Part shown: positions 1,919 through 13,005 of the stretch, one piece after another
Layout of the letters: each line of letters begins with the position of its first letter
Position numbering within the stretch: the stretch's first letter is position 1
DNA from: a virus
Strand: one strand, 5' to 3'
DNA length: 21,206 nucleotides
IMG/VR virus record: IMGVR_UViG_3300047564_004090
Span: 1-21,206 of that record
Made by a program: the position numbers and the translations under genes
The notes under the pieces: generated by a model
Seen by the model: only the letters and a program-made list of their open reading frames with translations
Told to the model about the DNA's origin: nothing
Database searches by the model: none

Positions 1919-2764
1919 TCAGCTGACGTAGATGGCCCACTCAGGGAGTCGGGCCTGAATCTGACGCAGCATGCGCGGCACCGTGGTGAGCTGAGTGGGC
2001 TCATCGATGGCGTCGGTTACGGCAGCGAGCAGTTCACCCACGTTGCGGCCATCGTCGTCCAGGTCGTCGGCATCGAGGAAATCACGGCAGGCGTCAAGAT
2101 CAACGCGAAGACAGCACGGCGAGGTGGAACGAGGTGAGGGCACCATCTGGCCGAGGTTGTGAACATCGGCGGCGAACTGGAGCAGGGCGCTCATTTCGCG
2201 GGTGGTGACCGGGCAACGGCCGAAGACACGCCACTGGACGGCATCACGTGGCATCACGTGGGTGAGTCTGTGACGGATGGCAGCACGACAGATGCGTTCA
2301 ATGGCGCGCTGCTTGCGTACTGGGTTGCTGAGGATGGCGAGGCGCTGCTGTTCGGTCCAGGTGCGTGCTGGCCGAAGGGCGGGCTTGGGGCGGAGGTTGG
2401 TGGTGTTGATGCGTGGAGGCTGCTGCTGGTGGCCTGCAGCGGCCTCGAGAAACCAGCCGTCCATCCATACGGCGAACTCAGGCGAGAGCCAGCGGGCGAG
2501 GTCTACGGCGAGACGTGGATGCACCCAAGTGCCACGAAGGTGGTTGGGGCCGGAGGTGGTGGTGAGTACGAGCTGATCGGCAGGGACGCCGAGGGAATCG
2601 CCCAGGGCGGCGAGGTAGGAGGTGGTGCGTTCGAGTCGCTGGTAGTCGGAGTAAAGCTTGCCGTTTGCCTGGCACATGGCCGTGGCGCTGGCATAGCCGT
2701 CGCTGTCGCGGCGGCAGATAGGTGCGTCGTTCCACGTGCGGACGACGAGGCCTAAGGCGTTCAT
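1919..2764 (-). CDS. KilA-N domain protein (phage regulator/antirepressor-like)
   Basis: A 281-residue protein. Residues about 1-105 match the KilA-N DNA-binding fold: DGYASATAMCQANGKLYSDYQRL, then a Leu-rich helix, then GTWVHPRLAVDLARWLSPEFAVWMDGWF, the signature of the family. KilA-N proteins are common in phages as antirepressor-like or DNA-binding regulators. The rest (about 110-281) is unassigned; it is Arg-rich around 130-180 and has acidic DADDLDDDGRN near 235. An in-frame extension of 31 residues exists upstream, but it is read through a palindrome and looks unreal; the ATG at 2764 starts right at the fold. No Shine-Dalgarno is visible. A 470-base structured leader separates it from the promoter at 3232-3259. 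Confidence 0.85.
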   Translation of the reverse strand: MNALGLVVRTWNDAPICRRDSDGYASATAMCQANGKLYSDYQRLERTTSYLAALGDSLGVPADQLVLTTTSGPNHLRGTWVHPRLAVDLARWLSPEFAVWMDGWFLEAAAGHQQQPPRINTTNLRPKPALRPARTWTEQQRLAILSNPVRKQRAIERICRAAIRHRLTHVMPRDAVQWRVFGRCPVTTREMSALLQFAADVHNLGQMVPSPRSTSPCCLRVDLDACRDFLDADDLDDDGRNVGELLAAVTDAIDEPTQLTTVPRMLRQIQARLPEWAIYVS

Positions 2765-2844
2765 GGTTGGTTCCGGTTTCTGAATGCCCGACACTGCTGC
2801 CGGACCCTCACAGCATAAGCACATTGTCCGGCGACCTGTCAACA

Positions 2845-2978
2845 GCAAGGGGTCCATCGGATTTCCGATAGACCCCTTGCCGTTGTCTCGATTTGAGTCT
2901 CACTTGGGGTCTATGGAGATTCCCATAGACGTACGTGGTGATACAAAACAAAGGGTCTATGGGATTTCCCATAGACCC
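2845..2978. repeat. Three related palindromes (GGGTCTATGGG family)
   Basis: Three hairpins share one core. The first has 16-bp arms at 2845-2860 and 2865-2880 with one mismatch and an ATTT loop. The second has GTCTATGG (2909-2916) pairing with CCATAGAC (2923-2930). The third has GGGTCTATGGG (2953-2963) and CCCATAGACCC (2968-2978), perfect, with the loop ATTT. The arms differ between copies but stay complementary in most positions. They occupy the leader just upstream of the KilA-N gene. They could be protein-binding sites, RNA hairpins or REP-like repeats. Confidence 0.75.
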
Positions 2979-2990
2979 CTTGCCTTCAGT

Positions 2991-3197
2991 GAAACTGGGC
3001 CTCCAGTACGGTTTCAGGTGCCCGCAGAACCAACAAGCACCACCGCGTCCATCCTTGCGGGTAGGACCGACCCAGCTTTGTGAAATTAGCCGTCAAGCTC
3101 GCCTCAGTGAGATGAAACCGGGCCTCCGATACGGTTTCAGGCGCCCGCCCAAGCAACAGGCACCACCGCGTCCATCCTTACGGGTAGGACCGACCCG
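2991..3197. repeat. 84-bp direct repeat, two copies
   Basis: Copies at 2991-3074 and 3114-3197 align without gaps at 74 of 84 positions, offset by 123 bp. Each begins with a small inverted repeat (GAAACCG/CGGTTTC in the second copy) and ends with a segment that can fold (CGGGT...ACCCG). Between them is about 40 bp of unrelated sequence. No frame through both copies has a plausible start, so I treat them as non-coding. With the palindromes before and the promoter after, they account for the gene-free stretch 2765-3269. Confidence 0.7.
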
Positions 3198-3231
3198 GCG
3201 GCAGGACTGTAGGCCCCGCCTCCTTTCTTGC

Positions 3232-3269: not shown

Positions 3270-3944
3270 TCACACCAGCCGATGGACCGCCTGGTAGCGG
3301 GTCCACACCGCAGCCCATGCCAGGAGGCACTCACGGCGGCTGTAGAGGGCGCTGAAGGTGGTCTGACCGGGCTTGGCCCAGATGGTCTGGCCGTAGTCGT
3401 AGTGGTTGCCGTGCGTGGCCTCCAAGGCCATGTAGCCGCCCAACTGGGCACGGGTGCAATAGGTGTGACTGTCGGCCGTGCCGAGGGTCTTGAGGTCGGC
3501 CAGGACGCGGCGGTTGGCAGCGACATAGGCCAGGTCGAAGGTGCCAGCGATGCAGCGCGTCAGGCAGCAGGTGGGTCGCTCGGACGCGATCACCGTGACC
3601 TGGTTCCAGTGATCGTGAGCCAGCAACGGCCTAATCCAATCGCTGTAGTCGCCACTGCGCAGTGACAGCAGCTCATCGCCAAGAGTCTGAAACTCAGGCG
3701 ATCTATCGCCTGAGTTTAGGGAAGGCGCGAATTGCAGGGTCAGGAACAGTTCCAGTGCGCGGTGGGTGGTGTTGCCTCGAGGAGCCCAGATCGCAGCTGT
3801 GGACATGATTCTGTCCATGGCGAAGTCGGACTTCTGGATGCGGAGGACACCAGTGACTGAGGTGGGGAATGGCCGGTCGTGGAGCCAGTACTTGTGTCCC
3901 GGATCGCGACGGATGAGACCGGGGATGGGTGAGAGCCAGGTCAT
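3270..3944 (-). CDS. RecB/Cas4-like PD-(D/E)XK nuclease
   Basis: A 224-residue protein with the motif order of RecB-family PD-(D/E)XK nucleases. There is an N-terminal His in GNTTHRALE (His61, with Glu65 one turn later), Glu122, then GTFDL (Asp137), LADLKT (Asp150, Lys152) and finally CTRAQLGGYM (Gln167). These are the metal-binding and catalytic positions of the family, which degrades or trims DNA ends in recombination. No iron-sulphur Cys set as in Cas4 is evident. In phages such nucleases usually pair with a single-strand annealing or ssDNA-binding partner; the unknown gene at 5021-5629 is the nearest candidate. The ATG at 3944 directly abuts the iteron-like region, so its expression may be tied to that DNA. 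Confidence 0.75.
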   Translation of the reverse strand: MTWLSPIPGLIRRDPGHKYWLHDRPFPTSVTGVLRIQKSDFAMDRIMSTAAIWAPRGNTTHRALELFLTLQFAPSLNSGDRSPEFQTLGDELLSLRSGDYSDWIRPLLAHDHWNQVTVIASERPTCCLTRCIAGTFDLAYVAANRRVLADLKTLGTADSHTYCTRAQLGGYMALEATHGNHYDYGQTIWAKPGQTTFSALYSRRECLLAWAAVWTRYQAVHRLV

Positions 3945-3954
3945 GGGTCAAAGC

Positions 3955-4249
3955 GCAGAACTGCTGAACTTTTGCTGAACGGTCGGTTCAGCACTTTTGA
4001 GAGGGGTAAAAGCTAGTAGTAGTAAGGAGAGAGAGTAGTAGAGAGAGTGTTTTGCTGAACTGCTGAACGATTTCATGATTCCAGTCGTTATGTTCGCCCC
4101 GATACCATTTGAGCCGATGGAATACACATACCCCCTTGGGATCGTTCAGCAGTTCAGCAAAACGGCCATTTTTCGCCGAGATCGACTGGTATGACTGGAA
4201 AAAATTTGCTGAACATGACGTTCTGCAGTTGTTCTGCAAATGTTCTGCA
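3955..4249. other. Iteron-like cluster in AT-rich DNA, candidate replication origin
   Basis: About a dozen GCTGAAC/GCAGAAC heptamers lie here in both orientations. Forward: 3955, 3963, 3974, 4054, 4062 and 4208. Reverse (GTTCAGC or GTTCTGC): 3986, 4144, 4152, 4220, 4231 and 4242. Spacings are 8 or 11 bp; the last three are exactly 11 bp apart and so lie on the same face of the helix. The stretch is clearly more AT-rich than its surroundings and holds a purine tract (about 4019-4048). This is the look of an iteron-type origin or a cooperative operator. Open frames across it are low-complexity and are not called as genes. Confidence 0.5.
4049..4163. repeat. Perfect 23-bp inverted repeat within the iteron region
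   Basis: Bases 4049-4071 and 4141-4163 are exact reverse complements over 23 bp, separated by 69 bp. Each arm contains two of the heptamers 8 bp apart. The pair could extrude as a cruciform or present two matched protein-binding arrays facing each other. Confidence 0.8.
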
Positions 4250-4299
4250 GTTTTGGCGGCCGTCAGGGTGGGGGTGAGATGGGGTGAGACAGGAATGTA

Positions 4300-4881
4300 T
4301 GAGCCCAGTGGGGAGAGCCAAAGCTCTCCGCGCTGAGATCATCAGCCCTTGCCAATCCACACCGGAGCAAGCCCATACGTGCCTAAGCAGGCCGTGACCA
4401 ACCCATCCGAACCTTGCCGTGTCCACCCTTTGTGAGGGTGGCAGGGAAGGCCCGAGAGCCCTCCGTGCCACCGTCAGCGGCCCGCACCCTGCCCGGCCTA
4501 GGCAGGCCGTATTGCGCCATTCCGTGCCATGTCTGTCCCATAGAGGACAGCAGGGAGGGAATCCCCTCCGTGCTGCCGTCTGCAGCCCATGCCGCGCCCC
4601 GCCGCACCTTGGCTTGCCGCACCCCACATCGCCGTGCCACGCCACGCCAGGCCGGACCAGGCGGCGCCACATCTGTCCCTTGAGAGGACAGCAGGGAGGG
4701 TTGCCCCTCCGTGCTGCCGTCTGCAGCCCATGCCCTACCACTCCCGACCAATCCGCGCTCTAGCGCACCAAGCCGAAACGAGCCTTGCCGCCCCATGACT
4801 TGCCGGTCCCAGCCCTGTCTGTCCAGTTGAGAGGACAGCAGGGAGGGTTGCCCCTCCGTGCTGCCGTCTGCAGCCCATGGC
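4300..4881. repeat. Array of about five diverged hairpin repeats
   Basis: Units of about 65 bp recur every 110-145 bp at roughly 4300-4355, 4420-4488, 4528-4592, 4669-4733 and 4815-4881. The last three are nearly identical (a GAGGACAGCAGGGAGGG block, then CCCCTCCGTGCTGCCGTC, then TGCAGCCCATG). Each folds into a stem: GGAGAGC/GCTCTCC in the first, GGCA...TGCC in the second, and CAGCAgGGAGGG/CCCTCCgTGCTG in the others. Stem bases change between copies while pairing is kept, which points to selection on structure. Between units the DNA is made of degenerate CCRTGCC-like runs. No believable protein is encoded; this explains most of the gap 3945-5020. Confidence 0.7.
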
Positions 4882-4905
4882 TTGCCGTGCCGCGCCGCGC
4901 CATGT

Positions 4906-4980
4906 CATGCCAAGCCTTGCCATGCCAAGCCTTGCCATGCCAAGCCTTGCCATGCCACGCCTCGCCATGCCACGCCTCGC
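4906..4980. repeat. 15-bp tandem repeat, five units
   Basis: Three consecutive units of CATGCCAAGCCTTGC (4906-4920, 4921-4935, 4936-4950) are followed by two of CATGCCACGCCTCGC (4951-4965, 4966-4980). The unit length is a multiple of three, so frames stay open and give repetitive peptides, but there is no gene context. Two internally identical sub-blocks suggest recent slippage duplication. Confidence 0.85.
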
Positions 4981-5020
4981 CATGCCGCACTGGGACTTAC
5001 ACCAGAGGATGCCCAGCGCA

Positions 5021-5629
5021 TCAGGCGGCCACCGCGACAGGGAGCACTTCCGCCTCGAATCGGCCGTGCTTGGGTCGCCAGTCGCCGAGGCCCACCAGCT
5101 TGCCGGCATCGGTTGCGATCTCTTCCACGTCGCGCATGTTGAGCACGTCGGGGTCGTACTGGGCCATCGCGGTGAGGCTCCAGTTGCGGAAGATCGGGCG
5201 GGTGCGCATGACCTTGGCCATGCCGACCTTGACGCCGATGGTGTGGGTGTAGCTGCCGGTGGCAAACAGTGCCGCCAGGGTGTCGTCATTGATGACGGCA
5301 GGCTTGCCGTCGAACTCAAGGGAGGCGTGTTCGGTGAAGAAGAGCCCGCACTTGGCTTGAGGGCCACGCTTGGACTTCTTGGCGCCGCCGATCATCGTGC
5401 TTTCGATCACGTAGTCCGGGATCACCAGGTCGCCGTCAATGCGGTAGAGGCCGGCAAGCCATTCAAGGCGTGCCAGTTCATCAAAGTCCGCGTCAGTCTT
5501 CTTGCGCTTGCTGCTGACTGCCTTCATCGCCTTCGCGTAGGTATTTCGCGGATCGGCGGTCTGACCGTTGTGGCACAACAGTGGGCTCACGCCCTGAAAC
5601 CGGATCTGAACAGAAGGAAGGTTGGACAT
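5021..5629 (-). CDS. Conserved phage protein, possible ssDNA-binding/annealing partner
   Basis: A 202-residue protein starting MSNLPSVQIRFQGVSPLLCHNG. I recognise a widespread phage family with the same landmarks: PLLCHNG near the N-terminus, a charged helix with AKAMKAVSSKRKKTD, then LEWLAGLY, then VMRTRPIFRNW, and a C-terminal GLGDWRPKHGRFEAEVL. I know of no established function. The Gly-rich C-terminus and beta-rich prediction are reminiscent of RAMP/Cas7-like nucleic-acid-binding folds, but that is only a guess. It sits with HNH and RecB-like nuclease genes, so a recombination or DNA-binding role is plausible. The ATG at 5629 was chosen because the 40 residues upstream in frame are Pro/Ser/Phe-rich and unlike the family. 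It overlaps the end of the HNH gene by 137 bases. Confidence 0.7.
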   Translation of the reverse strand: MSNLPSVQIRFQGVSPLLCHNGQTADPRNTYAKAMKAVSSKRKKTDADFDELARLEWLAGLYRIDGDLVIPDYVIESTMIGGAKKSKRGPQAKCGLFFTEHASLEFDGKPAVINDDTLAALFATGSYTHTIGVKVGMAKVMRTRPIFRNWSLTAMAQYDPDVLNMRDVEEIATDAGKLVGLGDWRPKHGRFEAEVLPVAVAA

Positions 5630-5984
5630 GTTGCTTTGGGGTTGCTGATGGAATGGAAAGGGAAGGCGGGGGAAGGTGAACCGGATCGACTTGCTTCTTG
5701 GGGTCCAACTTGAACCGCTGGCGCCGGACTGAATTGGTGATGCCGTCATGGCATTCAGAGCAGAGCGTCAGGAGGTCTGACATGAGCTCGTTGCCGAATG
5801 ACGGGTACGTGTAGTTCGGTGGGCCGGCGTTCTTGTGGTGAACCTGGAGAGGTGGCCAGCCAAGAGCGTCCAGCTGGGCGGCTGTGATGCCGCAGCCTTG
5901 GCATTGGTGGTTGTCGATCTCAAGCCGTTGCTGTCTGCGTTGCCGCCATTCGCGAGACAGGTAGTAGGAGTTGGACGTGCTCAA
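5493..5984 (-). CDS. HNH endonuclease
   Basis: About 163 residues with a complete HNH core. It has YYLSREWRQRRQQRL, CQGC (Cys28, Cys31), LQVHHKN (His49-His50), a spacer with an Asn, and LCSECHD (Cys75, Cys78, His79). The two CxxC pairs form the structural zinc site and the His residues form the catalytic beta-beta-alpha-metal site. Such enzymes nick or cut DNA, often in packaging or homing. The TTG at 5984 is preferred because it overlaps the previous stop as TTGA and starts right before the domain; a GTG at 6041 would add 19 residues. The last 70 residues are Pro/Ser/Arg-rich, unlike a domain, and overlap the next gene by 137 bases, which may reflect loss of an original stop. Confidence 0.75.
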   Translation of the reverse strand: MSTSNSYYLSREWRQRRQQRLEIDNHQCQGCGITAAQLDALGWPPLQVHHKNAGPPNYTYPSFGNELMSDLLTLCSECHDGITNSVRRQRFKLDPKKQVDPVHLPPPSLSIPSATPKQHVQPSFCSDPVSGREPTVVPQRSDRRSAKYLREGDEGSQQQAQED

Positions 5985-6187
5985 TGGAGAACGCGACGGC
6001 TGCGCTGCGCCAGTGCTTGATCTGCTGCAGTGGCATCCCACAGCAGGGGAGGGCGCCGAGTGCCCAGGCCCGCCACGCGGTAGTGGACGCCAGGGCGCAG
6101 CACGCCTTCGGCACGCAGGCGGGCAAGGGTGGACTCGCTGAGGCGCAGCTGTGCTGCGGCCTCCTTGGTCGTGAGGGTAAAAGCCAT
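5981..6187 (-). CDS. Excisionase-like HTH DNA-binding protein
   Basis: A 68-residue protein starting MAFTLTTKEAAAQLRLSESTLARLRAEG. It has the winged-helix pattern of MerR/excisionase-type HTH_17 proteins: a first helix with TKEAAAQL, recognition helix SESTLARLRAEGVL, then a strand (GVHYRVAG) and a final helix (TAADQALAQR). In temperate phages such proteins act as directionality factors for excision or as small transcription regulators. It is the first gene after the promoter at 6277-6307 and is coupled to the HNH gene. The phage's recombinase lies far away at 19766, so a role in excision is possible but not shown. Confidence 0.75.
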   Translation of the reverse strand: MAFTLTTKEAAAQLRLSESTLARLRAEGVLRPGVHYRVAGLGTRRPPLLWDATAADQALAQRSRRVLH

Positions 6188-6276: not shown

Positions 6277-6307
6277 ACTATAACGGCTGCGCAGTCACAA
6301 CTGTCAA
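6277..6307 (-). promoter_or_regulatory. Promoter with half-site in the spacer, excisionase cluster
   Basis: Minus strand: TTGACA (6307-6302), a perfect -35 box, then 18-19 bases, then TTATAG/TATAGT (6283-6277). The half-site GCTGCGCAGTCACAA (6286-6300) fills the spacer, an ideal place for a repressor. The -35 overlaps the last codons of the replication gene. About 85 bases of leader, with a GGAGGG hairpin at 6243-6260, precede the excisionase-like gene. Confidence 0.6.
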
Positions 6308-8697
6308 GCCTCAGGCTCTTTGTTCGCAACCCAGACCATCGACCCCTTCCTCTTGCCGGCCTTCATGGCGCCATGGCCATAGACCTCGACCAGCTGGCGC
6401 AGGAAGCGCAGGGCGATGGTTGAGTCGATCTTCTGGCGACCGAAGACCCGCCAGGTCATCACGTCGCGGGGTGTGACCTCCTGCCGGCCGGATTCACGCA
6501 CGAGGCGCAGGAACCGGGCGACAGGGGCGCGCAGCTCACTGGAGCCCAGTTCGGTAGAGATGGCATCGAACTGGGCGCGGTACCAATCGGACAGCAGCAG
6601 GCCGTAGCCGACCATGGCGGGCGACACCTCAATGAACCAGGCGCCGCTGCTCGGATCGCATTCGCACATGGTCGACAGTGGGCAGCCGGCCATGTGGGCG
6701 GATTCCGCCAGCTCGATCATCTGCAGGATGCCCATGAGGCGGCAGGAGTAGCCGCGCAGCTTGCCGAGGAAGGCCGCACGTGCGGGAGTGGAGCCGATCG
6801 CGTCCTGCGCCCAGGTCTCCCAGGTGGGTGCGGCGAGCTCCATCACCACCTCGTGAGGTAGGCGCACCTCAAAGCCGATGGCATTGGGGTCGTCGTCGGA
6901 TTGCAGCGACTGGGGCACGCCATCAAGCGAGGCGACCAGGGAGGACAGGTAGGAGTAGATGGAGAGGCCGTTGGGGTTGTACGACCAAACGCGCTGCGGT
7001 GGGCGGCACCAGAGAAAGCGTGCCCATAGGCCATCACCGGCAGCGGCGGCATCGTCGCCTTGGGCCTCGATCATGTTGAGCAGCCGCTCGGGTTGCACGT
7101 TGCCGAAGAGGGAGACGGCAGAGCGTGTCGCCATGGAGCTGGCGGCCACCTTGCGATCGATCAGGGCAGCACCACCACCCCAGAGGCTGAGCCAGCCTGC
7201 TCGGGCGCCGGCGGACTGGCGGGCATCGAGGCGTTCAAACCAGCCGGCCAGTTCATCCTGCTGGGACCAGATGCCGTAGGTGCGAGGCTCGGCGCAGATC
7301 TGCGCGAGGCGTTCGTAGGTGGCATCACTGACCAGCCAGCGACGTGGTGGCGGGATGTCCGGGTCCTTCTCGCCATCGCGGCGCAGCTGGCGGAGTTCCT
7401 CGAGGTGAGCCTTGAGGCCAGCTTGCTGGCGAGCAACGAGTGGTTCAGCGATGGCACCCAGGATGGGTGACTTCATCGCCGATGGCGGGAGGATGTTGCC
7501 GGCCCAGATGACGAATGGCTCAGACCAGCCGGGGTTGACCACCACCTTGGCCCTGGTGCCGACGACGGAGGCCGCAGCGGTGAGAAGAGGGCCGAGGAAG
7601 GCGGACGGATCCGCTGACATGGATTCCGCCTTGCTGATCAGGGCATGCGCGAGCCGTGGCGGAAGGATCAGCGCCAGGTTGATGGATGCGTCGAGATTGG
7701 CCAGCTGCTGCTGGAGCCGCTCACGGGCATTCTCGATCTCTTCCGTGAGGGTGTCGGTGGTGCCGGTGTCGGGTGCCTGCTGCTGGCCCTGGGGCTCATC
7801 GTCGAGCAGGTCATCCGGTGGGTTCCACTCGAACTCAGGCGCTGCCGGCGCGAGGTAGCCGTCTTGTGAGGCGAACCAATGGAGCGTGCCGGTGGTGATG
7901 CCGCGGCCTTTGAAGCTGGGCCACTTGGCGCGGCACTCGTCTTCATTGAAGTTGCTGCAGCCCTGCGACCAGCTGACCCAGGCATCGAGCAGCCCTGGAT
8001 CGGCGGAATGGAGTGCCATGCCGATCGACAGCCAGCTGCTGTAGTCATCGCGGGGCTGGATGTGCTGGAGCAACTCCAAGGCACGCTGCGCGTCGCCTGC
8101 TGATGGCTCGTAGTCGGTGTCGGGTGATTCGGTCGGCGGCTTGATCAGTGGCTCCAGCAGCCAGTCGGGTGCGTCGGCAACTTGAAGATCAGAAGGCGAT
8201 CGATTGGGGATCCAGTGATAGCCGGCTGTGTCCGGGTGGGCGCCGGCGATGACGGACTGATGGCCTGCCCAGCGGAGCTCAAGGACGGTGCGGCCATCGC
8301 GCTGCCAGAAGCGGCGACCACGAAGGTGCGGCCAGTATTCAAAGGGCACGCGGAACGCGAGCTGCCGGCGGTTGGGGCGACCAGAGGACCAGGCGGGTGT
8401 CGGCGGCAGATCGGACTGCGGACGGCCGAAAACCTCGCGGAAGGTGGCGGTGCTGCCGGTGCCATCGAAGTCGACCGCGAGCACACCGGAGATGGGACCA
8501 AGTACCAGGCCGAGCGCATGGACGTGGGGCGAGGCGGCAGTGCCGGCGATCTCGTCGAGGGTGGCGGCATGCGACACCCAGTCATCCAATGGATGCCCGG
8601 TGGTGGGATCTACGGGTCGCTTGCGGTCATCGCACGGGATGAGCCGCCAATCGGAATCGATCGCCTCAAGTGAGGCGAGAAGGGCGGTAGAGAGCAT
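6304..8697 (-). CDS. Primase-polymerase / DUF3987 replication protein
   Basis: A 797-residue protein with three parts. Residues about 5-185 are a primase-polymerase (archaeo-eukaryotic primase) domain: VLAVDFDG (catalytic Asp76 and Asp78), QLAFRVP, and HQSVIAGAHP...GYHW. Residues about 200-285 match the PriCT-2 linker (DYSSWLSIGMALH, AKWPSF, GTLHWFA). Residues about 330-640 match DUF3987, a helicase-like ATPase fold. The P-loop is unusual: GNILPPSAMKSP keeps Lys409-Ser410 but lacks the usual Gly residues; the acidic pair is Asp481-Glu482. Such fusions prime and unwind phage or plasmid DNA. The ATG at 8697 is preferred over a GTG directly before it. A half-site lies 63 bases upstream. Confidence 0.85.
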   Translation of the reverse strand: MLSTALLASLEAIDSDWRLIPCDDRKRPVDPTTGHPLDDWVSHAATLDEIAGTAASPHVHALGLVLGPISGVLAVDFDGTGSTATFREVFGRPQSDLPPTPAWSSGRPNRRQLAFRVPFEYWPHLRGRRFWQRDGRTVLELRWAGHQSVIAGAHPDTAGYHWIPNRSPSDLQVADAPDWLLEPLIKPPTESPDTDYEPSAGDAQRALELLQHIQPRDDYSSWLSIGMALHSADPGLLDAWVSWSQGCSNFNEDECRAKWPSFKGRGITTGTLHWFASQDGYLAPAAPEFEWNPPDDLLDDEPQGQQQAPDTGTTDTLTEEIENARERLQQQLANLDASINLALILPPRLAHALISKAESMSADPSAFLGPLLTAAASVVGTRAKVVVNPGWSEPFVIWAGNILPPSAMKSPILGAIAEPLVARQQAGLKAHLEELRQLRRDGEKDPDIPPPRRWLVSDATYERLAQICAEPRTYGIWSQQDELAGWFERLDARQSAGARAGWLSLWGGGAALIDRKVAASSMATRSAVSLFGNVQPERLLNMIEAQGDDAAAAGDGLWARFLWCRPPQRVWSYNPNGLSIYSYLSSLVASLDGVPQSLQSDDDPNAIGFEVRLPHEVVMELAAPTWETWAQDAIGSTPARAAFLGKLRGYSCRLMGILQMIELAESAHMAGCPLSTMCECDPSSGAWFIEVSPAMVGYGLLLSDWYRAQFDAISTELGSSELRAPVARFLRLVRESGRQEVTPRDVMTWRVFGRQKIDSTIALRFLRQLVEVYGHGAMKAGKRKGSMVWVANKEPEA

Positions 8698-8736
8698 CAC
8701 GTGGCGTGGTGGGGCGTGGTGGGCTGAACCGAGGGA

Positions 8737-10566: not shown

Positions 10567-10742
10567 CCGACCGCAACCGCTGGATTATCAGCCGTCAGCC
10601 AACTGCTGCTGATGGTGATCTGCATGGCTTGGTGCGATGGGGCATCCATCAACCGGGGCTGTTGATGGCATGGCAAGCAGTGCGACCCGGGGAACCGTGG
10701 GCGCATTCAGCAGCCTGGAAGCAGCAGGAGGTGGAGGGATGA
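10563..10742 (+). CDS. Small hypothetical protein (59 aa)
   Basis: A 59-residue protein starting MTDRNRWIISRQPTAADGDLHG. It has a Trp-rich pattern (VRWGIHQPGLLMAWQAVRPGEPWAHSAAW). The open frame reaches further upstream, but the ATG at 10563 makes an ATGA overlap with the preceding stop, as at every junction in this operon. The stop again overlaps the helicase start at 10739. Function unknown. Its compact size and position just before the helicase suggest a small partner or DNA-mimic-type protein, which is only a guess. Confidence 0.6.
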   Translation: MTDRNRWIISRQPTAADGDLHGLVRWGIHQPGLLMAWQAVRPGEPWAHSAAWKQQEVEG

Positions 10743-12118
10743 CTGCTGCCACCATCGCCCGCTATCGGGAGTTCATTGCCTCCAAAGGTGCCGCTGCAGC
10801 ATCTGATGGGTTTGCCATGACCGGCCAGTGGGATCTGTTCCCACACCAGCTAGCAACACTTAAGTTCGCCTGCGAGAAAGGTCGATCTGCTGCATTCCTC
10901 GACACTGGCCTGGGCAAGTCCCGCATCGAGGCATGCGCGGCTGAGGAGTTCCGCATTGCATCAGGCAAGCCGTCGCTGATCCTGACACCATTGGCTGTTG
11001 CCAGGCAGATGCAACGCGAATGTGCGGCCGCTGGTGTTGAGGCCAAGGTGGTGCGTGAGCCAGAGGATGTATGGGCTGGCGTCAACATCGCCAACTACGA
11101 ACGGCTGCCGAAGCTGGACCCCACGTTGTTTGGCGGGGTGGTGCTGGACGAGAGCAGCATCCTCAAGAGCTTCTCAGGCCCCACCAAGCGGCTGCTGTGC
11201 GATGCCTTCGCTGGTACGCCGTATCGGCTGGCGGCCACGGCCACACCAGCCCCGAACGATCACATGGAGCTCGGCAACCATTCCGAGTTCCTTGGGCTGC
11301 TGGGCAGCATGGAGATGCTGTGCCGGTGGTTCGTCAACGACACCGCTACCGCCAGCCAGGAGTGGCGGCTGAAGGGCCACGCGCAGCAGGACTTCTGGCA
11401 GTGGGTCGCGTCATGGTCCCGGGCAGCCACGTTGCCCTCAGACCTGGGCGGTGATGACGATGGCTTTGTGCTGCCGCCATTGCGGTACCACCTGCATACC
11501 GTCAGCGCTGACATCACGACCGAGGTGCCTGACGGGATGCTGTTTCGCATCCCAGATGGGTCTGCCACCACGATCCATAAGGAGAAGCGGCTGACGCTGG
11601 CTGAGCGGGTGGCTGCTGCCGCTGAGGTGGCCAACAAGGCCACAGGTGCGGTGATCGTGTGGTGCGAAACCAACGATGAATCCACCGCTCTGGCGCGCGC
11701 CATCCCGGAGGCGATCGAGGTGCATGGTTCCATGCCACCTGATGCCAAGGTTGCGGCGCTGGATGCCTTCACCTTTGGCGAGGCCCGGGTGATCGTGAGC
11801 AAACCCAAGCTGGCCGGGTTGGGATTGAACTGGCAGCACGCCAGCACGGTGGTGTTCGCCAGCGTCAGCCACAGCTATGAACAGCACTACCAAGCCGTCA
11901 GACGTGCATGGCGGTTTGGCCAGAGCAATCCAGTGGATTGCCATGTCGTGATTAGCGACACGGAATCCTCGATCTGGTCCAATGTGCAACGCAAGCAAGC
12001 TGATCACCTGCGGATGAAGCAGGCAATGGCCAAGGCAATGGTTGGATTCCAGACCGCTGCAAGCAAAAAGATCTACACGCGATCTGCTGATGTATCGCTT
12101 CCATCTTTCCTCACATGA
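10739..12118 (+). CDS. SNF2-like superfamily 2 helicase/translocase
   Basis: A 459-residue protein with the two RecA-like domains of superfamily 2. Domain 1 has FPHQLATLKFACEKGRSA (Q-motif area), Walker A DTGLGKSR (55-62), LILTPLAV, a Walker B VVLDESS (DES, 137-139) and TATP (167-170). Domain 2 has VIVWCETNDES, then KLAGLGLNWQHASTVVFASVS and the motif VI stretch YQAVRRAWRFGQ with its Arg fingers. It uses ATP to move along or remodel DNA. An earlier in-frame ATG exists, but 10739 sits at the ATGA overlap. Its stop overlaps the methyltransferase start, a pairing seen in phages and in some defence or modification systems. Confidence 0.85.
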   Translation: MTAATIARYREFIASKGAAAASDGFAMTGQWDLFPHQLATLKFACEKGRSAAFLDTGLGKSRIEACAAEEFRIASGKPSLILTPLAVARQMQRECAAAGVEAKVVREPEDVWAGVNIANYERLPKLDPTLFGGVVLDESSILKSFSGPTKRLLCDAFAGTPYRLAATATPAPNDHMELGNHSEFLGLLGSMEMLCRWFVNDTATASQEWRLKGHAQQDFWQWVASWSRAATLPSDLGGDDDGFVLPPLRYHLHTVSADITTEVPDGMLFRIPDGSATTIHKEKRLTLAERVAAAAEVANKATGAVIVWCETNDESTALARAIPEAIEVHGSMPPDAKVAALDAFTFGEARVIVSKPKLAGLGLNWQHASTVVFASVSHSYEQHYQAVRRAWRFGQSNPVDCHVVISDTESSIWSNVQRKQADHLRMKQAMAKAMVGFQTAASKKIYTRSADVSLPSFLT

Positions 12119-13005
12119 AACTATCCCCCGACTACCAGGGCGCCAGCTGGGCGGTTTACCTCGCTGACTGCATTGAGGTCATGACCGGCCTGCCTGAGGG
12201 CCTGATTGACCTGTCGATCTTTTCGCCACCGTTCTCTGATCTGTTCGTCTATTCAGATTCTGAGCGAGACATGGGCAACTGCGGCAGCCATGCCGAGTTC
12301 ATGGATCACTATGGATTCTTCTGCGCTGCGCTGTATCGAGCGATGAAGCCTGGCCGCATCGTTTGCGTCCATTGCTCAGACCTGCCAGCACGAAAGGGCA
12401 AGGATGGATTCATTGGGTTGCATGATTTCGGTGGTGACCTGATCCGTGCTCATCAGGCTGCTGGATTTGTGTATCACGCCAGATGCACGATCTGGAAGGA
12501 TCCTGTGATTGAGATGCAGCGCACCAAGGCATTGGGGCTGTTGTACAAGCAGCTAAAGAAGGACAGCAGCATGAGCAGGGTGGGCATGCCGGACTACATG
12601 CTGTTCTTCCGAAAGGATGAGCCCAACCCGGATCCGATCACGCATCAGCCGGCTGATCTGCCGGTGTCGCAGTGGCAGGAGCTGGCATCACCGGTCTGGA
12701 TGAACGTGAATCAGACCAAGGTGCTGAATGGCCGAATGGCTCGGGGCCAGCAGGATGAACGCCACATCTGCCCCCTCCAGCTGGATGTGATTGAGCGGTG
12801 CCTGACGCTGTACAGCAACCCCGGCGACCTGGTGCTGGATCCGTTCAATGGAATCGGCAGCACGGGCTACCAGGCAGTGAAGATGGGCCGGCGGTACATC
12901 GGCGTCGAGCTGAAGCCTGAGTACGCCAGGCAGGCTGCCAAGTTCCTGGAGCAGGCAGAGGGTGCAGCGGCAACGCTGTTCTCCATGCCCGAGGTGGCGG
13001 CATGA
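12115..13005 (+). CDS. Beta-class DNA methyltransferase (N6-adenine or N4-cytosine)
   Basis: A 296-residue amino-methyltransferase. The catalytic motif IV SPPF is near the N-terminus (residues 37-40) and the S-adenosylmethionine-binding motif I DPFNGIGSTG is near the C-terminus (about 241-250), followed by GRRYIGVELKPEY. This motif order defines the beta class. SPPF is found in both N4-cytosine and N6-adenine enzymes, so the target base is open. The middle, about 90-220, would hold the target-recognition region. It methylates DNA, perhaps to protect the phage from host restriction. No restriction gene is adjacent. It is translationally coupled to the helicase. Confidence 0.85.
   Translation: MKLSPDYQGASWAVYLADCIEVMTGLPEGLIDLSIFSPPFSDLFVYSDSERDMGNCGSHAEFMDHYGFFCAALYRAMKPGRIVCVHCSDLPARKGKDGFIGLHDFGGDLIRAHQAAGFVYHARCTIWKDPVIEMQRTKALGLLYKQLKKDSSMSRVGMPDYMLFFRKDEPNPDPITHQPADLPVSQWQELASPVWMNVNQTKVLNGRMARGQQDERHICPLQLDVIERCLTLYSNPGDLVLDPFNGIGSTGYQAVKMGRRYIGVELKPEYARQAAKFLEQAEGAAATLFSMPEVAA

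Follow-up and report, generated by a model that had tools for sequence, protein, structure and literature searches.

A putative iteron origin in a cyanophage family and its coupling to the C-terminal domain of a primase-helicase

An array of twelve GCWGAAC heptamers in a linear virus sequence (IMG/VR record IMGVR_UViG_3300047564_004090; the whole 21.2-kb stretch analysed is called the window) is very probably a cyanophage replication origin, which would be bound, in a SaPI- or P4-like manner, by the C-terminal winged helix of a Prim-Pol/DUF3987 protein encoded on the same stretch; we put the probability of this reading at about 0.82. A candidate replication origin had been proposed here in the first-pass annotation, and the proposal gained ground from a 12-site layout conserved in a diverged relative, from arrays at the same place in further relatives, and from repeat motifs that track the C-terminus of the primase-helicase. 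The origin reading is well supported and places the array in a known type, the iteron origins that primase-helicases recognise through a C-terminal domain. What is new is that cognate arrays are found for Prim-Pol/DUF3987, AAA_25 and VapE initiators within one cyanophage family, and that nearby KilA-N proteins have C-termini which, in sequence comparisons, match the initiator winged helix. Two points should be of interest to specialists: motif and domain are swapped throughout the family, and KilA-N proteins have the same domain.

The array and the initiator in the window

Twelve of the 18 GCWGAAC heptamers of the whole window fall within the array (Table 1), exactly the number, in both orientations, that had been estimated at the outset. 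When the 295-bp array region was shuffled 2000 times, the motif occurred 0.13 times on average and never more than twice, and in the shuffled window the most found in any 300 bp was three. In this respect the window resembles an iteron origin of the SaPI/P4 kind, with short repeats arranged in a set pattern and above chance. Four copies read GCAGAAC and most read TGCTGAAC, a motif that may resemble the P4 iterons. Along the plus strand the spacings are 8, 11, 12, 68, 8, 82, 8, 56, 12, 11 and 11 bp, which bears out the 8- and 11-bp phasing noted earlier, including the three sites joined by 11-bp steps (4220, 4231 and 4242). The 23-bp inverted repeat is indeed perfect, with arms that are 100% complementary and 69 nt between them, and the AT-rich island corresponds to an area of lower G+C (0.52 in 3751-4250 vs about 0.60-0.68 across most of the window) that contains a purine tract. 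A skew change, which the first-pass annotation had named as a mark of an origin at this position, is absent from the window fragment: within the 21.2 kb, the G-C skew has the same sign on both sides of the array.

Table 1. Positions of features in and around the array in the window
Feature	Position	Strand	Remarks
KilA-N protein	1919..2857	-	downstream of exonuclease
KilA-N C-terminal domain	2072..2302	-	aa 186-262; homologous to initiator winged helix by sequence comparison
PD-(D/E)XK-type exonuclease (phrog_298)	3270..3944	-	adjoins array; syntenic marker for finding relatives
Iteron array, putative replication origin	3955..4248	.	12 GCWGAAC, both orientations; count, shuffles, conserved order in L243/L003
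Heptamer starts, first six	3955, 3963, 3974, 3986, 4054, 4062	+, +, +, -, +, +	
Heptamer starts, last six	4144, 4152, 4208, 4220, 4231, 4242	-, -, +, -, -, -	
Exonuclease-proximal iteron cluster	3955..3992	.	+8+11+12-; mirrored in L243
Purine-rich low-complexity tract	about 4002..4048	.	candidate easily melted element
Inverted repeat, left arm	4049..4071	+	two iterons 8 bp apart
Inverted repeat, right arm	4141..4163	-	two iterons 8 bp apart
Distal iteron cluster	4208..4248	.	+12-11-11-
GC-rich repeat stretch	4958-4459		between array and phrog_4652 gene
phrog_4652 protein	5749-5021	-	
HNH protein	6041-5493	-	
Small HTH_17 protein	6187-5981	-	
Putative replication initiator	6304..8700	-	Prim-Pol aa 11-180, PriCT_2 208-277, DUF3987 helicase-like 433-714, C-terminal winged helix
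Initiator C-terminal winged-helix domain	6316..6528	-	about aa 725-795; proposed iteron reader

The array for which relatives were to be searched, beside their nuclease or replication genes, was found with an identical 12-site layout in a viral contig (L243, also L003) whose exonuclease and primase-helicase are 66% and 59% identical to those of the window, and with other motifs elsewhere. In L243 the twelve heptamers lie at the equivalent position in the same order and orientation, at spacings, read towards the exonuclease, of 8, 11, 11, 47, 8, 82, 8, 68, 12, 11 and 8; as the layout is nearly mirror-symmetric, this comparison is valid in both reading directions. The stretch between the paired octamers is 75 nt long in both. 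Since the DNA between the sites has diverged while the sites were kept, it is the sites and their geometry that form the conserved part.

On the minus strand the order is Prim-Pol/PriCT_2/DUF3987 gene, HTH_17, HNH, phrog_4652, GC-rich repeats, array, exonuclease and KilA-N. The HTH_17, HNH and phrog_4652 genes (5021-6187) thus separate the initiator from the array in the window, whereas the L243 array lies close behind its initiator. The GC-rich stretch at 4459-4958 consists of four copies of a CCCTCCGTGCYGCCGTCTGCAGCCCATGCC-type repeat, spaced about 105-147 bp apart, and two 87-bp direct repeats that are 89% alike were observed at 2990-3199, between the exonuclease and KilA-N genes.

The putative initiator combines primase and helicase domains with a predicted C-terminal winged helix. 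Modelled by AlphaFold from three aligned sequences, the C-terminal domain folds as helix-helix-helix-wing with a core pLDDT near 90, and its best fold matches are winged-helix DNA-binding domains, including those of the Fur/PerR type (Z 7-9). As the fold is common, the match of this model shows a DNA-binding type of domain and not a family. Sequence searches of the PDB returned nothing usable for the winged helix; the sole low-E matches of its profile, two Hax3 chains, aligned over a repeat region and were not taken as homologues. P4 alpha is not among the fold matches listed for the winged helix, an absence that carries no evidence. Winged-helix domains of DUF3987/VirE primases were earlier predicted to read origins (PMC5862659), and for Prim-Pol/DUF3987, AAA_25 and VapE primase-helicases, whose origin reading was previously just such a prediction, there are now candidate origins.

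We propose that the initiator would bind the outer and inner heptamer clusters through its C-terminal winged helix. Two helicase assemblies would be positioned by the two groups of sites that face each other, the 23-bp inverted repeat among them, with their rings opposed over the central ~75 bp. DNA opening would then fall to the helicase part of the initiator and priming to the primase part. Parallels for these steps have been published for SaPI Rep, P4 alpha and pRN1 (PMC7581432, PMC4234260). The KilA-N protein, with its homologous C-terminal domain, would compete for the heptamer sites.

Related arrays and the initiator C-terminus

A scan with a two-exonuclease alignment led to 31 viral loci, and a second exonuclease scan to 15 loci in mostly picocyanobacterial genomes, Synechococcus, Cyanobium and Vulcanococcus among them, the relatives being mostly freshwater Synechococcus/Cyanobium phages and prophages. 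These alignments succeeded where single-protein searches (the window exonuclease against viral contigs and the phrog_4652 protein against genomes) gave no relatives. Three tandem copies of TGCTGAAC were also tried as an array finder in viral contigs and were rejected, as most hits were repeats within reading frames, spaced by multiples of three. Loci that reach far enough upstream have the primase-helicase gene first and then, with few exceptions, an array before the exonuclease. The arrays of the relatives thus lie 3' of the primase-helicase gene, directly downstream of it in L243, S-LBS1, L307, L316 and other relatives, compared with the three intervening genes of the window; in L261 and L266 the primase-helicase reading frame takes in the array at its 3' end, and the array is therefore translated.

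The motif differs from group to group (CCGGACAA, GGATTCTT, GGAAACTT, GCCAACA/C, GGGGGACA, CGGGAATT, CGTGAAAA, GGCCATAGC, CGGGCAAT and GTCACATG). In most of these arrays the top 7-mer is present 5-12 times vs about 2.5 in shuffles, and when every motif was counted in every array the resulting matrix was close to block-diagonal, with a weak motif call for L244, L255 and L288. As for a shared non-iteron core, no k-mer stood clearly above shuffles across the family arrays. The window-type winged helix had no match in searches of 349 host-order genomes and of named phages, and the exact GCTGAAC double inverted pair had no match in 399 genomes, indicating that this motif type is rare or undersampled.

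The primase-helicases are mosaics, in which a Prim-Pol/PriCT_2 or other primase is joined to a DUF3987, AAA_25 or VapE helicase and to one of several unrelated C-termini. Across 26 loci, those with similar C-termini tended to share motifs (Mantel r 0.74, p 0.0002), also in a partial test on the rest of the protein (r 0.46, p 0.0002), whereas the partial r between motif and the rest of the protein was -0.02 once the C-terminus was taken into account; the p-values are rough, as the loci are not independent samples. In 70 pairs with a homologous body and an unrelated C-terminus, motif sharing was 0.09 vs 0.07 in unrelated pairs, and it was 0.41 in pairs with a related C-terminus. L245 and L307 have a ...NEST(V/I)RNNLTWLRKR... 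helix and the motif CGGGAATT, and L279, L283 and L288 have a QEGS helix (...QEGSVRNNLTWLRKR...) and the motif CGTGAAAA; the domains of the two groups are otherwise similar and differ where the putative recognition helix starts. A counter-example is given by L258, L268 and L284, which have related C-termini and different motifs. Co-variation of this kind suggests an element-specific pairing of C-terminus and repeat motif, and an action of the Prim-Pol/DUF3987 protein at the array, supposed from the start, is the best-supported reading, as the motif tracks its C-terminal winged helix. The diverged pairs of winged helix and motif come near to a ready-made specificity code.

Arrays were also found apart from the exonuclease. 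The cultured phage S-LBS1, which according to its own paper lacks this exonuclease, carries an array of 14 GGTTRGGCAG sites (34241-34620) immediately 3' of the Prim-Pol/VapE gene. A text search of that paper found the origin of replication unmentioned. The cumulative G-C skew of S-LBS1 has its minimum at 34063, beside the array, which lends weak support to the origin reading, and because a cultured phage belongs to the family the idea is directly testable. In L316 and L322 an array lies behind a VapE-type initiator, with that exonuclease not adjoining, and in L056, an unrelated or distant Prim-Pol/VapE phage, a mirror-image GCTGAAC array lies 3' of that gene. A rule that all Prim-Pol phages have a 3' array had to be rejected, as none was found 3' of the Prim-Pol gene in S-EIVl, phiHSIC, Sf11, 13VT501A and H40/1; the array thus characterises these groups rather than Prim-Pol phages in general. 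In Vibrio phage 13VT501A (L305) a dense AAAATGC array of 9 copies lies upstream of the Prim-Pol gene, at about 4800-5250.

Among named phages, the kin of the window are S-CBS3, a distant relative by its exonuclease, and S-LBS1, a distant relative by its Prim-Pol domain. At 10637-13005 the window encodes an SNF2-type helicase and a DNA methyltransferase that are 80% and 83% identical to those of S-LBS1; the closeness of this pair, with origin modules that differ, points to module exchange. The last 118 bp of the S-LBS1 sequence (L300, MG271909; 34524-34641) are an exact copy of 34270-34387, 254 bp upstream and inside the array, which is either a true duplication or an assembly artefact.

Alternative readings and known origins

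The heptamers might instead form an operator array, at which a repressor, possibly the initiator or the KilA-N protein, controls the exonuclease operon while replication begins elsewhere. Initiators frequently control promoters close by, and the nearest heptamer is ~10 bp from the exonuclease start codon. We regard this as improbable, since the arrays 3' of the initiator in S-LBS1, L316 and L322 have no exonuclease next to them, and since 12 sites in 295 bp, arranged in two mirror-image groups around a constant 75-nt centre, are more than an ordinary operator; the genes flanking the array are also co-directional, and a divergent promoter pair is absent. Less probable still is a linkage artefact, whereby motif and C-terminus move as one block and another protein reads the array. 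As the array usually adjoins the C-terminal coding sequence, at the 3' end of the initiator gene in most relatives, the coupling could in part be simple co-transfer, and C-terminal similarity is itself correlated with body similarity (r 0.90). However, pairs with a homologous body and a different C-terminus do not share the motif, three genes part the initiator and the array in the window and yet motif and domain type agree with L243, and a separate protein, KilA-N, has the same domain type.

A stem-loop origin like that of pRN1, in which the inverted repeat with its 69-nt loop would form an extruded hairpin and the outer heptamers would play a secondary part, seems to us about as improbable as an operator. 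The geometry does resemble that of pRN1, where a ~100-nt stem-loop (21-nt stem, 58-nt loop) is required immediately 3' of the prim-pol gene, and the crenarchaeal pRN1 protein ORF904 also joins Prim-Pol, helicase and winged helix, with the origin just 3' (PMC4234260). Unlike the array of the window, however, the pRN1 origin is a stem-loop without iterons; here an inverted repeat is present in a region of iterons, its arms are made of the iterons themselves, L243 retains only the iteron-bearing parts of the arms, the hairpin would leave out most of the array, and the choice of motif follows the winged helix. Very improbable, finally, is a partition, packaging or recombination site. Repeat arrays also act as centromeres and pac sites, and the S-LBS1 array adjoins terminase genes on the circularised map, but replication genes flank the array in the relatives that have the exonuclease, the motif follows the primase-helicase, and the window's serine recombinase is encoded 15 kb from the array.

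The preferred reading, an iteron origin bound by the initiator, has precedents. SaPI Rep uses its C-terminal domain to recognise the iterons that follow directly behind its own gene, and both SaPI Rep/ori and SCCmec Cch2 resemble the present case in having a self-loading helicase initiator whose C-terminal domain reads downstream iterons (PMC7581432). Unlike in those systems, a Prim-Pol is here fused to DUF3987, AAA_25 or VapE, the hosts of the module are cyanophages, the mirror-image array is larger, and binding is predicted. In P4 alpha a winged helix binds the origin repeats, and primase, helicase and C-terminal winged helix are likewise united in one protein, with repeats at the origin (PMC4234260); the primase of P4 alpha is of the Toprim type, unlike that of the window, which is an archaeo-eukaryotic Prim-Pol.

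KilA-N proteins sharing the initiator domain

Sequence comparison pairs the C-terminus of the window KilA-N protein with the winged helix of L243 (33% over 78 aa, E 7e-9) and, when the two are compared directly, with that of the window's own initiator (E 2e-5), and with no other C-terminal type. In a scan of KilA-N relatives, the C-terminus was of the same type as that of the phage's own initiator in three of the four lineages with both genes visible, the window being one of the three. In the second, L307/L308/L315, the KilA-N proteins are of the L279/L245 type (E 4e-5 to 2e-4 against the phage's own initiator and about 1e-6 against L279), and in the third, L316, the C-terminus is of the VapE type (2e-6). 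Those of L249, L270, L271 and L318 match a family type, with their own initiators outside the contigs, and that of L273 is like L270 in the alignment and has no separate match. Shuffled KilA-N C-termini gave no match in 600. In the fourth lineage, L322/L323/L337, where both genes are present, the KilA-N C-terminus has no initiator match, and the initiator domain is not shared by the KilA-N proteins of the T7-like and Toprim-primase phages L309-L314, L317, L319-L321, L326 and L327. Judged by these comparisons, the domain shared by KilA-N proteins and initiators is real and limited to a subset. A model of the whole window KilA-N protein, made from one sequence, was uninformative (pLDDT 36).

A KilA-N protein that matches the initiator winged helix suggests a competitor at the origin. 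It would probably bind the initiator's sites, most likely limiting or shutting off initiation of its own phage or of incoming related phages. More tentatively, and at slightly less than an even chance, the KilA-N proteins might be decoys derived from the initiators of the family that occupy the origin and so hold replication off, the resulting pressure driving the repeated, complete replacement of motif and winged helix in a replication module that is otherwise conserved. If so, replication would be held off either while the phage is a prophage or when a related phage comes in.

The closest precedent for both mimicry and swapping comes from the Vibrio PLE, where the DNA-binding domain of the initiator RepA co-varies with the origin and replication modules are swapped, and from Odn of phage ICP1, a chimera that borrows the PLE initiator domain, targets the origin and may drive PLE origin replacement (PMC8263062). 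Other protein families are involved there (RepA_N and a nuclease), whereas the possible mimic here is the KilA-N protein of the same phage; Odn joins an initiator domain to a nuclease, and in the window protein the initiator-type domain is present while Pfam found KilA-N and no nuclease domain. BstA, a KilA-N-type protein, suppresses phage DNA replication, self-immunity being conferred by aba, a 63-bp DNA element that contains CCCGCC repeats and lies at the bstA gene (PMC8585504). The window protein has a KilA-N domain and a weak phrog_6287 match; C-terminal homology to an initiator does not figure in the passages of the BstA description considered here (PMC8585504). Should KilA-N proteins use the reading domain of the initiator, this would offer a concrete mechanism by which some of them act on phage replication. 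Three palindromic repeats of the GGGTCTATGGGATTTCCCATAGACCC type were observed at the start of the window KilA-N gene and upstream of it (2846-2984), and the exact palindrome is also found at the KilA-N genes of L270, L307, L308 and L317.
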